Shown here one piece after another: positions 3,888 to 47,235 of a DNA stretch of 64,000 bases (position 1 is its first letter; every line of letters begins with the position of its first letter). Below the pieces are notes generated by a model. That model did not search any database and was not told the DNA's origin. It saw only the letters and a list, made by a program, of their open reading frames with translations. Where the stretch lies: positions 4,363,501 to 4,427,500 of the forward strand of contig NZ_CP125098.1 in NCBI RefSeq assembly GCF_030020805.1, written 5' to 3'. The position numbers and the translations under genes are program-made. This DNA is from Paenibacillus sp. RC67 (GTDB taxonomy: Bacteria; Bacillota; Bacilli; Paenibacillales; NBRC-103111).

Positions 3888-4163
3888 CCGCAGAACACCT
3901 CATATTGTATTATTTAGTATGATTAAATATTAATACCATTTATGATCTGAATCATAGAAGTATACTCATCTTTACGATCGAAACAAGAAATCAAAGGATA
4001 AAACATATACCATATTATACCATGTCCACTCCTTACTTGAGGCTATGATTATAATTATTGTATTACAAAGAATTTAGTTGACTAGGATTTAATATTGATT
4101 GTATATTTATACATTATATTGTATTTTTATCATATTAAAGTATGATGTTAGGAGTGAGAAATA

Positions 4164-41345: not shown

Positions 41346-43421
41346 TTATTGAGGAAGCAGCGCTTCCTTGAATTCTTCAATATCCGTTGTCGGTGAATAA
41401 CAAGCAAAGTTCTCGCAAACATACACCGTTGGCCTTCCGCCTATAGCCTGCTTGTCTTGAACTAAAGGAATCAATTCGCGAACCTTCTCTCCCTCTTCCC
41501 CTGTTGGAACCAGGAATACTAAGGTATGGGGTCTGAAGCCTTGACGTGCCGCGGCAATCATCTCCGTTGTAGTATTGGATTGAAGATCGCCTGCAATGAC
41601 AATTTCGCTTGAAGGGCTATAGGCATAATCCAGAGCTATCAGGAACATCGAATGACCTGTCGGATAGCGCTCAATAGAGCCTGCAAAGGCTTGTAATTGC
41701 CTCTCGGCAATCTGCGACAACCTTGCGTCATAGGTCAGCTTGGACAGCTTCAAGAAGTTCATCGCCGCTACAGCATTCCCGGAAGGAAGTGCACCGTCAT
41801 AAATCTCTTTGTTCCGCGTGAATAATTGCTCACTGTCGCTTCCATAGAAGAATAATCCTCCATTCTCCTCATCCCAGAACAACTCAATCATCTGTTCGTT
41901 CAGCTCAACAGCCAGCTTCAAAAACTCCAGCTCAAAAGACGCCTCATACAGCTCAATAAGTCCCCATACCATGAAAGCATAGTCATCCAAATAGGCAGCG
42001 AACGCCGCTTCTCCATCCCGGTACCTTGCTAGTAGCCTTCCATCCGGACGCCTTATCTTGGAGATGATAAAGCGAGCCGAACGAGCTGCCGCCTCCAGAT
42101 ATTGTGGACGTTCCAGTACCTTATAGCCTTTAGCCAGCGCCATAATCATAAGCCCGTTCCAGGAGGTTAACACTTTGTCATCCTTACCCGGATGGACACG
42201 CTGTTCGCGATAGCTGAACAACGTTTGGCGGCATCTTTCGATGGTTCGAGTCAATTCATCAAGTTTCAGCCCCTTGAGCCGCGCGTACATCTCCACATCA
42301 TGCTGGATTAAGTTAGGGATGCTGTGACCTTCAAAATTGCCTTCCTCTGTAATATCGTACAAATCGCAATAAAGCTCGCCTTCCTCATCACCTAACACTT
42401 GCAATATTTCTTCCGGCTTCCAGACGTAAAACTTCCCTTCATGTCCTTCCGAATCCGCATCCTCCGCTGAATAGAAGCCCCCTTCAGGGTCTGTCATATC
42501 ACGAAGCACATAAGTGAAGATCTCCTCTGCCGTGTGGGAATACTTCGTTTGCCCAGTTAACTGGTATGCTTCCAAATAAGTCCAGGCGAGAAGCGCATTA
42601 TCATACAACATTTTCTCAAAATGCGGTACCATCCAGCGCTCATCAACAGAATATCTGGCAAACCCAAAGCCGATGTGGTCGTACATCCCGCCGCGCTGCA
42701 TCGCATCAAGCGTCTTCTCTACCATTTGCAGAGCAGACTCCTTGCCGGTTCGATGGTAATATCGCAGCAAAAACGAGAAATTATGTGAAGTTGGAAACTT
42801 AGGAGCATCACCAAATCCGCCGAACGACGGGTCGAAGACTTCCTCGAACTGAGCAAAGGCTTGGTCGAGTGTCTGCTCCGAAACCTCACCCTTCAAGTTA
42901 GAGAGCATCCGCTGTTCCACATCCGTCACGATTTGATCGCTGGTCTCAACCATCCGCTCCCTATCTTCCTTCCACTTGCCCGCCAGCTGCGGCAAAATGT
43001 TCATCAGCCCGTGACGTCCGTAACGACGGTTTTTGGGATAATAGGTCCCTGCGAAAAACGGCTTCTTATCCGGAGTCATAATAATCGTAAGCGGCCATCC
43101 GCCCTGCCCTGTCATTGCTTGACATACGGTCATGTACAGATGATCCACATCGGGTCTTTCTTCACGATCTACCTTGATCGATATGTAATGTTCATTTAAT
43201 ATTGTGGCTACTTCGTCGTCCTCGAACGATTCGTGTGCCATGACGTGGCACCAATGGCAAGTGGAATAGCCGATAGATAAGAAGACAGGTTTGTTTTCCT
43301 GTTTTGCTTTGTCAAAAGCTTCTTCAGACCAAGGGAACCAGTCAACTGGGTTGAGAGCATGCTGCAACAAGTAAGGTGATTTTTCCTTAGCTAGTCTATT
43401 GGGTTTATTGTGAGTTGTCAT
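41346..43421 (-). CDS. Thioredoxin-fold DUF255 / YyaL-like protein
   Basis: The roughly 691-residue protein has an N-terminal thioredoxin-like DUF255 domain ([14 protein letters not shown], redox motif [12 protein letters not shown]) and a long alpha/alpha-barrel C-terminal region with glycosidase-like repeats. It belongs to the YyaL / spermatogenesis-associated protein 20 family, whose enzymatic role is not clear. Both Cys of the CxxC pair are present. ATG 43421 follows AGAGGTG at eight bases; a GTG at 43430 falls within that site. It stands alone with a terminator. Length is normal for the family. Confidence 0.92.
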
Positions 43422-43430
43422 GGTCTTCAC

Positions 43431-43691
43431 CTCTTTTCGATGGATTTATTAGTATAACACTTAAAAATATATTTTTCCCAAATGTGCAGGAAAAACTATA
43501 GCTCTGTTACACTATCAATCATTTTATTCATTCTTCCCTTCGGTCACCTCAAAACTTCAACATTACATCGTTCTGTGAAACCTGTTGACTTGATGCTGAA
43601 GTAAGCTCATTGTTCGAAGACATAGCCCCCCTTCTTGATTCCTGGAATAATTTTCTTTTCAATATTTTGAGTTTAGCATAGCCTGATAAAA
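43431..43691. other. Intergenic stretch without a gene
   Basis: AT-rich sequence between the DUF255 start and the terminator of the DUF6530 operon. I see no open frame with a ribosome site. Its 43440-43500 part is the likely DUF255 promoter (minus strand). Confidence 0.5.
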
Positions 43692-43724
43692 AGAAAAAAC
43701 CTTTGCTTTGAAAGCCAAAGGTTT
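43692..43724 (-). terminator. Terminator of the DUF6530-MoxR-vWA-GIY operon
   Basis: On the minus strand AAACCTTTGGC and GCAAAGGTTT pair around a TTTCAAA-type loop and are followed by TTTTTTC. It lies about 100 bases after the GIY-YIG-like gene's stop. Confidence 0.85.
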
Positions 43725-43822: not shown

Positions 43823-44182
43823 TTATCTCATTGTCGGCTTATTATATCCCTTATCTCCATAAGGCTGCAATTTCTCCAGCCACCGCTTTTCCAATTGCTT
43901 GACCTCCCAGCGAACGTCGGTGACTCCGTCAGCTTCCTTCTCCTCTAGAACCTCATAGGTGAAATTCTCAGCCCCATATTCCTTCCAGTCCTTTTGAAGC
44001 TGGGAATTTGCAAACCTGCCCATATCCAGTTGAGCCTGTAGGGTCAACCATTTGTTTTTAAGATTGGGATAGCTATCTATATAAATTTTACCGTTTGCCT
44101 TATTCACTATTTGGATTGCACCCATGTAGGTCTTAATCTGCTTGTATTCCTCTTGAAGCTCCCTACGCTTGTTCTTGTCCAT
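43823..44182 (-). CDS. GIY-YIG-like protein with degenerate nuclease motif
   Basis: The 119-residue protein resembles a GIY-YIG nuclease domain: MGAIQIVNKANGKIYIDSYPNLKN, then an Arg in MGRFANSQLQKDWKEYG and FTYEVLE, and GYNKP near the end. The first motif reads GAI instead of GIY and the second YID (Asp36) instead of YIG. Glycine in YIG is usually required for the fold of the active site, so nuclease activity is doubtful. ATG 44182 is preceded by GGAAGGAGAGG. It is the last gene of the operon with DUF6530, MoxR and vWA genes. Confidence 0.8.
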   Translation of the reverse strand: MDKNKRRELQEEYKQIKTYMGAIQIVNKANGKIYIDSYPNLKNKWLTLQAQLDMGRFANSQLQKDWKEYGAENFTYEVLEEKEADGVTDVRWEVKQLEKRWLEKLQPYGDKGYNKPTMR

Positions 44183-44219
44183 GATTTCCTCTCCTTCCGC
44201 GTCCATTAGATGACTACAA

Positions 44220-45350
44220 TCACAAATACCGAGAGATAATCCGAACTAGCTTTGCAGGCAGCTCAATTAGATTGGTAATATCCAAATATCTCTCATTCCC
44301 ATAGATTTGATTAATCACTTCCTTGTCCTGGCCTATGGCGGCTGCAAGAAAAGTAATTCCTTTCCGTTCATACTCGGTTATGGTCTGCTGCATGTCTTTG
44401 ATTGCATAATTTCCGGTATAGTCATCCATGGCTTTGGGCTGCCCATCACTTATACTGATCAATAATTTGGTCTGTTGGGGTGCGGCCGCTAATCGATCTG
44501 CCATAATTCTAAGTGCCATCCCATCGCGATTATTACTTCGGGCTCGAATCCCCATAAGTCTATATCGATCATTGGAATCGGTTTTCTCCCAATCGGTATA
44601 CGCATAAATCGACATCTGCTCCAGCTTGGAAGCATCCGCTGTATCCCCGTAAATCATTATCGGGATTTGACATAGCTGACAAAACTCATACACGGCTATC
44701 ACCGCACGTTTGGCAGCTTCCAATCTCCCAAAAGCCGCCATGGAAGCTGACTCATCTACTCTCACACCGACCACAAGAGAAGGAGATTCTGTTGGAGGAA
44801 GTTTTTTGGCAAAATACCTAAAATCCTTATAAGCCACACTATCCGCTTGAAATTTGCTGCCATAGTATTGATTTCTCGCAAATTCGGCTGATGTTTCATG
44901 CTCCAATAACGGAAGTGTCTTCCTAGCAATCTCCCGTACGACAGGCATTAGCTCCTTACTTAGACTGTCATATTCCTCCCGAGCTTCCCTATCGTACTCC
45001 GGACGGTGAACGATGAGCTTAACCCCTTTATGAATGGAATCGGACACAACCTCCCTTGCGTCGCGATTCAGCTTTTTACGGAAATCCCGCTCTTTTTGTT
45101 GCGCTTCTTCTGACATGGATTCAGGATTGGCCTGATGATATTTGGGAGTACCATTCTCCCCCCTATCTGAACTTTCCATATCAGTAGAAGCATCAGAAGC
45201 ATCGGATGTACTTTCATCACTTTCCGCAGATTTTCTTAAAGCGATGCCTTGTTCCTCTTCCTTGCCATGCTCAAAATCAGAATCGTCAATATTTCCCCAT
45301 GTTCTTATCTCTATCTCGTCAAAAATTCTTTTTTTTACATTCAATATCAA
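44220..45350 (-). CDS. vWA domain protein (CoxE/ViaA-like MoxR partner)
   Basis: The frame of 376 residues opens with an acidic Ser-rich segment (about 20-65). A charged helical region (about 85-165) and a von Willebrand A domain follow, with the MIDAS DESAS, the Thr in IYGDTADAS and a second Asp in SISDGQP. Such proteins act as partners of MoxR AAA+ ATPases, as ViaA does for RavA. The start is unclear: TTG 45350 lies inside moxR, 32 bases overlap, with no good ribosome site. The frames meet at an A8 run. Many relatives carry a longer N-terminal helical domain, so truncation or fusion is possible. Confidence 0.82.
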   Translation of the reverse strand: MILNVKKRIFDEIEIRTWGNIDDSDFEHGKEEEQGIALRKSAESDESTSDASDASTDMESSDRGENGTPKYHQANPESMSEEAQQKERDFRKKLNRDAREVVSDSIHKGVKLIVHRPEYDREAREEYDSLSKELMPVVREIARKTLPLLEHETSAEFARNQYYGSKFQADSVAYKDFRYFAKKLPPTESPSLVVGVRVDESASMAAFGRLEAAKRAVIAVYEFCQLCQIPIMIYGDTADASKLEQMSIYAYTDWEKTDSNDRYRLMGIRARSNNRDGMALRIMADRLAAAPQQTKLLISISDGQPKAMDDYTGNYAIKDMQQTITEYERKGITFLAAAIGQDKEVINQIYGNERYLDITNLIELPAKLVRIISRYL

Positions 45351-46425
45351 CTTTTTCTAGACCAACTAACAAACCATGGCTTTTCAGTGCTTCCTCCAAT
45401 AGTTTGATTTCATCGGAATCGGTTGTTATCTTGTAGATGACTTTATGATAAAGGGATTCTTTCGCTGAAGCACCTGCAGCAACCGCATCCGCCCAATAGA
45501 AAAATGAACGCATACCCGCCACACCTTTTATTGCATTGACCCTCGCTGTCTTGTCTAGAACAATAATAATATCTGCTAAAACATCCAATACCGCTGCATC
45601 CCTATAACCGGTTTTGGACATTGCCCGCTCAACCATGATTTCTTTGGTTGGCAGATCCATCTTTTCCGTATGCTGAACTCTGTCACGCAGTGCTTCGTTT
45701 AACGGTCTGGTTCCTGCATAACTGCGGTTCGTTGTGATTACAGCTATGAAGTCTGGGTGTCTGCGTATGATTTCTGTAGGTAGGTTAATGCTGCCATCCA
45801 GCTCTAAAGCTGAGTTAAGTGCCATTAGCACCGCGGCATCCCGAATCACGGTTGGTTCTTGGATTTCCAGAAGATAGCCTTTTTGATAGGCTCTGACGAT
45901 TTCAGAAGGGTAGAATCGATACTCAACCACTTCTTCCTCGGTGTTCTGTTCAATCCTTTTCAGTAATTGTTTCATCTTTAAGACTGCCTGTTCCTGCGTA
46001 ACTCCGAGCACGTTCATCAATACTTCGGCTGCGCTTTGAAAACCATCGCTTTCATATAATGTCTTTAAAATAACTTGATCCGAATGTTCCATCTTTTCTA
46101 TTCGTTCCGATGAAATAACCGGTAAAATAGCCCCAATAATATCGGATTTATCCATATCGGCAAAACAGGTCACTTTCGTATAGGGCAGACCAAAATCAGA
46201 AGACAATGCTTTGGCAAGCTGTGTTTTACCAGAACCTGCGTCACCCTCTAAGAGAATATTGGCAATTTTCATTTCCCCGCGATTCCAGTTGCGCTTTATT
46301 TCTTGGCATATACGCATTTCTTCTACACTGACCTTATGAGATAGCGGCTTTTTCCAAATAAGTTCTTTTTCTATATCTGTCCATTGTCTTGTTGGTGACA
46401 AAACAAATTCTTCTTGGTCGTTCAT
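45319..46425 (-). CDS. MoxR-family AAA+ ATPase
   Basis: The 368-residue AAA+ protein shows Walker A EGDAGSGKTQ, pore/insert region LEIQEPTVIRDAAVLMALNSAL, sensor 1 ITTNRSYAGTRPLNEALRDR with the arginine finger, and C-terminal helical lid. It is of the MoxR group that remodels or matures partner proteins together with vWA proteins. Helical insertions at about 105-160 (MKQLLKRIEQNTEEEVVEYRF) are unusual in length. The ATG has GGAGAAC before it. It follows DUF6530 by 27 bases and overlaps the vWA gene. Confidence 0.9.
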   Translation of the reverse strand: MNDQEEFVLSPTRQWTDIEKELIWKKPLSHKVSVEEMRICQEIKRNWNRGEMKIANILLEGDAGSGKTQLAKALSSDFGLPYTKVTCFADMDKSDIIGAILPVISSERIEKMEHSDQVILKTLYESDGFQSAAEVLMNVLGVTQEQAVLKMKQLLKRIEQNTEEEVVEYRFYPSEIVRAYQKGYLLEIQEPTVIRDAAVLMALNSALELDGSINLPTEIIRRHPDFIAVITTNRSYAGTRPLNEALRDRVQHTEKMDLPTKEIMVERAMSKTGYRDAAVLDVLADIIIVLDKTARVNAIKGVAGMRSFFYWADAVAAGASAKESLYHKVIYKITTDSDEIKLLEEALKSHGLLVGLEKVDIECKKKNF

Positions 46426-46452
46426 CCTAGTTCTCCTCTCCGACGAACTCTC

Positions 46453-46932
46453 TTAGTACCCCATTTCTTTTAATAGCCTGGATAATACACGAAGACGTTC
46501 GCCAATCATTTCGCCATCATCATTAAGTGCTTGAGCGAACAGCTTAATATCGTTATCAATCATGGGATTTTCTGCGCAGACGGACACACTCATAGCATCC
46601 CCTTGCAGCCCAATACGGTCAATCATCGTGTTATCTGGGTCATACATTTTCGGGAAGCGATAGGCATCCTGAAAATATAAATTGCTTCTGCAAATCAAAA
46701 TAGCAAGATCAAGAACACGATGCATAGGCAGCTCTTCGGACTGTCTTGACCATTTCTCCCCTGTGTATCTCCACACTTTGGCCGAGATATCTACTTTCCC
46801 TCTATCATTCCACTGTGCCAGACCCAGGGATAGTCCTTTTGCATCTGTGTTCCCTGCGTATCGGCCATCAACCTGCTCATAATTTTCAGATACGACAACA
46901 GGCTTATGTTTTAAAGTCGTTGGTATTTTCAT
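46453..46932 (-). CDS. DUF6530 family protein
   Basis: The 159-residue protein starts MKIPTTLKHKPVVVSENYEQVDGRYAGNTDAKGLSLGLAQW (only short parts diagnostic: KPVVVSENY, GLSLGLAQWNDRG). It has WRYTGEKWSRQSEELPMHRVLDLAILI and a C-terminal helix. This is a small conserved family of unknown function that I know from Bacilli beside AAA+/vWA genes. It begins the operon, with GAGAGTGG ahead of the ATG, and is followed by MoxR, vWA and GIY-YIG-like genes. No catalytic motif was recognised; a substrate or adaptor role for the ATPase is a guess. Confidence 0.72.
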   Translation of the reverse strand: MKIPTTLKHKPVVVSENYEQVDGRYAGNTDAKGLSLGLAQWNDRGKVDISAKVWRYTGEKWSRQSEELPMHRVLDLAILICRSNLYFQDAYRFPKMYDPDNTMIDRIGLQGDAMSVSVCAENPMIDNDIKLFAQALNDDGEMIGERLRVLSRLLKEMGY

Positions 46933-46974
46933 TTTTTTCCACTCTCTCCATTTGATATTTATGTTTTGAATTAC

Positions 46975-47021
46975 TGACTTACTTATTTAGTGATTTACTA
47001 AATTACTAATTTACTAAATAT
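46975..47021 (-). promoter_or_regulatory. Repeated ATTTA(C/G)TAAAT palindromes, candidate operator
   Basis: About 45 to 90 bases before the DUF6530 start, two copies of the palindrome ATTTACTAAAT (near 46993 and 47009) and partial copies (TTTAGTGATT, ATTACTAAT) lie in tandem with roughly 16-base spacing. Spacing and symmetry suggest binding of a dimeric regulator at the operon promoter. AT-rich chance repeats cannot be excluded. Confidence 0.4.
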
Positions 47022-47235
47022 GAAATTATCATACCCATCATTTCTTCATCTGTCAATCCGGTTAAATGTCCAATATCTTCTATTAGGTTTAGAAAATGGA
47101 GAATTTAATGGTCCCATCACGGTTTATCCTTCATTAGGGTTTACTTCGAGATGGTTAATATTCTTATCTTTGAACAATGTATATCCTAGGTATGCGTTAA
47201 CCCTTCCTTTTATTTTCTATGATCAGAACACAAAT
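47022..47235. other. Intergenic stretch without a gene
   Basis: Region of about 280 bases upstream of the DUF6530 operon and downstream of the DUF2306 gene. A 74-codon open frame on the plus strand (47020-47244) has no ribosome site and no recognisable features, so I treat it as noise. Confidence 0.5.

Follow-up and report, generated by a model that had tools for sequence, protein, structure and literature searches.

A tandem TTASTAA array that accompanies DUF6530 suggests an autoregulated accessory regulon in Paenibacillus sp. RC67 and other bacteria

The gene for a DUF6530 protein leads a four-gene operon in a 64,000-nucleotide stretch of the Paenibacillus sp. RC67 genome (NZ_CP125098.1, positions 4,363,501 to 4,427,500; hereafter the window), and a promoter followed by an array of short repeats lies in front of it. 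Overall, the results are best explained if DUF6530 binds DNA sequence-specifically and controls its own expression along with that of an accessory regulon, which we consider somewhat probable on the basis of sequence comparisons. An earlier note on this DNA had described the promoter as palindrome-rich; this proved to be real, consisting of a promoter and a near-palindromic array, and became the main finding. The elements concerned are the following (window coordinates).

47028–47056, minus strand: sigma-70 promoter (TTGACA-17-TATGAT) with a perfect −35 and a 5/6 match at −10.
46970–47017, minus strand: putative operator array of six 8-bp units, TTAGTAAA TTAGTAAT TTAGTAAA TCACTAAA TAAGTAAG TCAGTAAT (consensus TTASTAAW), at or just past the transcription start.
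46453–46932, minus strand: DUF6530 (PF20140), 159 amino acids (aa), proposed DNA-binding autoregulator.

The consensus unit of the array is TTA-S-TAA-W, a 7-bp near-palindrome repeated at an 8-bp pitch. The pattern TTASTAAWTTASTAA (up to one mismatch) was found three times in the window, always inside the array (0.02 matches expected), and the 16-mer TTAGTAAWTTAGTAAW (up to one mismatch) had no second site anywhere in the 7.96-Mb genome. The upstream regions of DUF6530 relatives have little in common except a promoter and an A/T-rich repeat, and at least three contiguous units were present upstream of DUF6530 in 85 of 101 copies examined, including those of Paenibacillus, Listeria, an Enterococcus plasmid, a Synergistes locus and a Spirochaetes locus. 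Most exceptions could be accounted for: where a GIY-YIG-like, MoxR or MFS exporter gene (see below) leads the operon, the array precedes that first gene; one array (L059) is degenerate; and the remainder are mainly gammaproteobacterial copies with other spacings. The unit profile (n = 375) was T330 T324 A367 G259/C101 T365 A352 A357 A221/T139, and since the central base is free to be G or C at the dyad, a double-stranded palindrome is a better fit than a site in RNA. Of the 73 arrays in the relatives, 59 have a promoter with a score of 10/12 or higher in front of them, compared to 5 of 73 after shuffling. In most loci, the array starts 3–4 or 10–12 nt past the −10 element, in phase by whole units, and it mostly ends 11–40 nt upstream of the start codon, being largely transcribed. 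Two other roles for the array were rejected: it does contain stops in all frames, as a six-frame stop cassette would, but its phase-locking to the promoter, its copies in trans and its dependence on DUF6530 favour an operator, and a plasmid-partition centromere was discarded because there is no ParA-like partner and the copies are mostly chromosomal. Exact arrays in viral contigs amounted to four unrelated perfect octamer repeats and were judged coincidental.

The presence of the array follows that of DUF6530. A scan of GTDB genomes found at least 581 stretches encoding DUF6530 relatives, of which the best 80 were kept; these are 77–97% identical and come from Paenibacillus, Desulfosporosinus, Clostridia, a Synergistaceae metagenome-assembled genome (MAG) and a Spirochaetes MAG. 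Two comparison sets, 104 Paenibacillaceae genomes and 299 Bacillota genomes, were searched for the array as a 23-mer with at most two mismatches, using the reversed pattern as a control. The array was present in 73 of 80 Paenibacillaceae genomes with DUF6530 and in 0 of 24 without it (Fisher’s test, p = 1e-17), and in 35 of 49 Bacillota genomes with DUF6530 versus 4 of 250 without it (p = 8e-30), both p values being inflated by relatedness among the genomes. The four matches in Bacillota genomes lacking DUF6530 carry two mismatches and are at about the level of the reversed-pattern controls, which were near zero. Seven Bacillota genomes combine DUF6530 and the array with no GIY-YIG-like or MoxR match at all, and therefore neither of these partners is required for array retention. 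Among the genomes compared, DUF6530 is the only constant companion of the array.

Copies of the array were also found in trans. In the five genomes in which the MoxR-vWA genes are unlinked to DUF6530, an array lies close upstream of their operon in all five loci, and among the other unlinked arrays fetched, six of seven precede the same MFS exporter gene (in genomes G006, G017, G019, G032, G038 and G039). When 20 further genomes with DUF6530 and an MFS homologue were read, the array preceded the MFS gene in six; it preceded 0 of 7 MFS homologues in genomes lacking DUF6530, and 0 of 24 unlinked GIY-YIG-like paralogues. The MFS exporter (MFS_1/MFS_3; nearest named families, weakly, MefA, Tap and EntS) is a fifth recurrent partner, absent from the window locus and from the earlier note, and in some other genomes its gene lies within the DUF6530 operon. 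On several contigs (G066:C9, locus L201; G072:C55; G076:C335; G081:C27; G086:C29), a single MFS gene separates decayed DUF6530 fragments from an intact copy, which indicates that DUF6530 has repeatedly been duplicated and has decayed around this gene. One genome (G106) carries two perfect TTASTAAW arrays (L191, at 4085; L192, at 4072–4110) distant from its array-less, divergent DUF6530, one of them just upstream of a gene of the same DUF255/thioredoxin-like family as the window neighbour at 41346–43430.

The two halves of DUF6530 behave differently with respect to the array. Gammaproteobacterial plasmids and phages carry a lone DUF6530, without the other operon genes, whose mean identity to the window protein is 70% over residues 1–80 and 20% beyond, and TTASTAA is enriched over shuffles upstream of most of these copies, at a pitch of 7, 9 or 12–13 bp. 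Conversely, array-less DUF6530 homologues keep a C-terminal half of 53–82% identity (L098 excepted) but retain little of the N-terminal signature KIPxxLKH…AQW…SAKVWRxTGEKWSRQSEE, with K8, A39, W41, K52, V53, R55, K60, W61, R63 and Q64 mostly lost; according to a quick tree, the array-less state arose at least twice. Such a double dissociation suggests that the DNA reader is the N-terminal half (about residues 1–80) and that the C-terminal half is the part linked to partners. A structural model of DUF6530 built from a diverse alignment (predicted local distance difference test, pLDDT, 92.5; predicted template modelling score, pTM, 0.88) has beta strands with a single long helix between residues 10 and 92, followed by a hairpin and two helices; it replaced a first model from a shallow alignment (pLDDT 66), whose fold matches were meaningless. 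Foldseek returned no PDB or BFVD match to the new model at E ≤ 0.001, and VIA-align gave no Z ≥ 5 among 1000 candidates; the predicted fold is possibly new.

The remaining features of the window locus are as follows.

45319–46425, minus strand: MoxR-like AAA+ ATPase, 368 aa, Walker A GDAGSGKT; optional module.
44220–45350, minus strand: vWA protein, CobT_C-like, with metal-site residues kept; partner of MoxR.
43823–44206, minus strand: degenerate GIY-YIG-like protein (GAI/YID), 127 aa.
43684–43724, minus strand: intrinsic terminator-like hairpin and T-run (AAACCTTTG...CAAAGGTTT), by inspection.

We confirmed the layout and identities proposed in the earlier note: all four open reading frames run in the same direction, with a gap of 27 nt between DUF6530 and MoxR, an overlap of 32 nt between MoxR and vWA (assuming a TTG start) and a gap of 13 nt between vWA and the GIY-YIG-like gene. 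PF20140 matches the window DUF6530 above cut-off over its full length (294 bits, residues 1–159 of 159), the MoxR protein matches AAA_5 (43 bits) with its ATP-binding residues kept, and the vWA protein matches CobT_C (27 bits; cut-off 21) with DESAS and D302 kept. The hairpin 3′ of the GIY-YIG-like gene (read from 43724 to 43684) agrees with the single terminator described in the earlier note; it was read by eye, and an automatic terminator scan (loop ≤ 8) did not pick it up.

The four genes had also been proposed to form a self-contained system, to be checked by counting neighbours. The counts bore out the association: DUF6530 was found in 80 of the 104 Paenibacillaceae genomes, the window-type MoxR subfamily in 50 and the GIY-YIG-like family in 95, and the GIY-YIG-like gene, the commonest partner, adjoins 60 of 91 DUF6530 copies in this family (same strand in 60/60) and 32 of 45 in the Bacillota set (always on the same strand, with gaps of 5–52 nt in 30 cases). 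Similarly, DUF6530 is no more than 3.5 kb away from 45 of 50 Paenibacillaceae MoxR matches, and in the five remaining genomes it is present at another site. However, the set itself is not constant, as the 91 Paenibacillaceae copies divide into 31 with both MoxR and the GIY-YIG-like gene, 29 with the latter only, 15 with MoxR only and 16 with neither, and window-type MoxR occurs in 4 of 299 Bacillota genomes. MoxR and vWA are fused into one gene in several relatives, and scars of a deleted MoxR-vWA pair are visible in L011 and L015. Because the GIY-YIG-like gene is variable and MoxR-vWA is mostly missing outside a few clades, DUF6530 is taken as the core: across the genomes compared, DUF6530 with its putative operator is the constant unit, the GIY-YIG-like gene its commonest partner, and MoxR-vWA an optional addition confined to a few clades. 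A DUF1801 gene adjoins MoxR-vWA in L105, L110 and L019, two of these three being without an adjacent DUF6530.

The GIY-YIG-like protein has no Pfam match, but a profile of its family finds the catalytic domain of I-TevI (1ln0/1mk0; E = 4e-11). As the earlier note had pointed out, its motifs are altered (GIY to GAI, YVG to YID), and across the family GIY becomes GAI, GVI or GIF and the Arg is replaced by Lys or other residues. Judged by the catalytic residues of I-TevI, the protein is probably not a nuclease, because the family conserves neither the first Tyr nor the Arg; it may be a nucleic-acid-binding or scaffolding relic. Two paralogues occur in the window genome (G000:C1:2358733, L102; G000:C1:4237910, L103), one fused behind DUF2087 (385 aa) and the other stand-alone and adjoining folC. 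Such unlinked copies are common in Paenibacillaceae and have no array. In L055, L070 and L074, a DUF2087 gene stands directly behind DUF6530 (ahead of the GIY-YIG-like gene in L055 and L074), an arrangement that splits what is elsewhere a single DUF2087-GIY protein.

We propose that DUF6530 would repress its own promoter by sitting on the tandem TTASTAA sites over the transcription start, which have an 8-bp pitch in Bacillota; its N-terminal half would read the site and its C-terminal half would connect with the optional partners. A signal would lift repression and thereby raise production of DUF6530 and of any partners present in the strain, namely the presumably catalytically dead GIY-YIG-like protein, the MoxR-vWA pair, which would remodel a client, and/or the MFS exporter, whose gene may lie at another genomic site behind an operator copy of its own. 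The association with the MFS exporter suggests a regulon that responds to a toxic small molecule, and the most likely output would be efflux and protein remodelling that protect the cell or mobile element from such a molecule or a like challenge. Sequence comparison provides the operator, the way it tracks DUF6530, the sites in trans and the dissociation of the two halves, and from these we infer DNA binding, repression, signal and output. Several points weigh against the proposal: the predicted structure matches no solved DNA-binding fold, so the fold lends no support to DNA binding; many MFS homologues in DUF6530-containing genomes have no array; the losses of array and N-terminal signature represent few independent events (at least two); and the efflux output rests on a single optional partner. 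In addition, DUF6530 is almost the sole gene of 2.6-kb plasmids, which a pure autorepressor would leave unexplained; on the present proposal the protein must have a further activity. On one of them, L082 (E. coli pSJ_2, 2640 bp), the main annotated cargo is DUF6530 and a 109-aa protein of no assigned function; small plasmids related to pSJ_2 are common in Enterobacteriaceae.

An alternative explanation, compatible with DUF6530 as a regulator, is that DUF6530, the AAA+/vWA pair and the GIY-YIG-like protein form a phage-conflict or mobile-element module that guards its host or carrier, the operator merely regulating it. The carriage of DUF6530 on small plasmids (109 plasmid records) and on phage contigs, beside terminase or Rz-like genes, would fit such a module, as would the patchy yet highly similar copies in distant taxa and the proposal of MoxR-vWA pairs in conflict systems (PMC7159879). 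However, the neighbourhoods gave no sign of defence islands, as only 1 of 125 neighbouring proteins matched a PADLOC model at 1e-20; the four window proteins gave only weak homing-nuclease/AAA matches to these models, the GIY-YIG-like partner has lost catalytic residues and the vWA protein has no effector domain. We regard this explanation as unlikely. The defence role suggested by the earlier note received no positive support from the neighbourhoods. A fixed four-gene quality-control or defence machine, with DUF6530 and the GIY-YIG-like protein as clients of MoxR-vWA, appears very improbable: the near-exclusive occurrence of MoxR-vWA at DUF6530/GIY loci speaks for it, but most DUF6530-GIY pairs have no MoxR-vWA anywhere, so the latter is not needed for their function, and the deletion scars in L011 and L015 point the same way.

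Two further alternatives, both of which seem to us quite improbable, concern what reads the array. It could act at the RNA level, as a (UUASUAAW)n repeat of the 5′ leader to which DUF6530 or some other protein binds, thereby controlling translation or transcript stability; this would suit an array that starts so close behind the −10 element and is largely transcribed. However, the central G or C (259:101) with conserved inverted-half flanks is what a DNA dyad would show, RNA readers seldom accept a G/C swap, and the pitch shifts from 8 to 12–13 bp in the gammaproteobacterial relatives. Equally, an unrelated, broadly conserved host factor could read the array in place of DUF6530, given that the predicted fold does not link DUF6530 with DNA. 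Yet the array has no second copy in the window genome and is absent from Paenibacillaceae genomes lacking DUF6530, the site is seen again in groups from Bacillota to gammaproteobacteria only where DUF6530 is present, and its loss accompanies that of the N-terminal signature, all of which favour DUF6530 itself as the reader.

Among known systems, MetJ and omega are ribbon-helix-helix proteins with tandem operators. Similar to the met-box and omega operators, the array consists of short near-palindromic tandem units at a 7–8-bp pitch over a promoter, precedes the gene of the proposed regulator itself and has sites in trans; unlike MetJ and omega, DUF6530 is modelled as mixed alpha/beta without a solved-fold match, and its site, TTASTAA, differs. 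With CobS-CobT, NorQ-NorD and RavA-ViaA, the window pair shares an AAA+ protein with an intact Walker A (best solved match, midasin) and a vWA protein that matches CobT_C over cut-off as well as NorD/CobT chains, but TIGR01651 scores 27.1 bits against a CobT equivalog cut-off of 759, and no chelatase genes lie alongside. The GIY-YIG-like family shares the catalytic-domain profile match with I-TevI and differs from it in being stand-alone (115–130 aa) or, in paralogues, DUF2087-fused, in addition to the unconserved catalytic Tyr and Arg. In the MoxR-vWA ternary conflict systems (Kaur et al. 2020, PMC7159879), a MoxR AAA+ gene and a vWA gene lie side by side and are joined by a further component; the window and its relatives have the same adjacent pair, but in contrast to these systems, the window vWA protein has no C-terminal effector (the vWA match ends at residue 372 of 376). 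The main text of that paper contains no mention of GIY-YIG, CobT or Paenibacillus. No Pfam or NCBIfam match to VMAP/iSTAND was found in the four window proteins with these general libraries, which include no dedicated VMAP profile. Overall, DUF6530 is filed as a candidate undescribed autoregulated family that resembles tandem-operator repressors, with membership of none of these systems claimed.

A broader reading, which we put forward tentatively as falling somewhat short of an even chance, is that DUF6530 regulators form a new DNA-binding family whose predicted fold has no match and whose operator is carried between phyla, phages and minimal plasmids and governs interchangeable effectors (dead GIY-YIG, MoxR-vWA, MFS pump) as a mobile, self-contained stress or conflict regulon. 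If true, this would provide a new DNA-recognition family, a portable operator with which the regulon could be sought in any genome, and an explanation for the repeated meeting of a dead GIY-YIG protein, MoxR-vWA and an efflux pump at one locus; DUF6530, widespread across hundreds of genome loci, plasmid records and phage contigs, becomes the subject of a directly testable hypothesis. The literature searched contained no mention of DUF6530 by name, of the array sequence or of GIY-YIG with DUF2087. By its place after glmS and a riboflavin kinase gene, we take lmo0729 to be, probably, the Listeria DUF6530 gene. A mutant screen for intracellular growth lists lmo0729 in one of its tables (PMC3091722).

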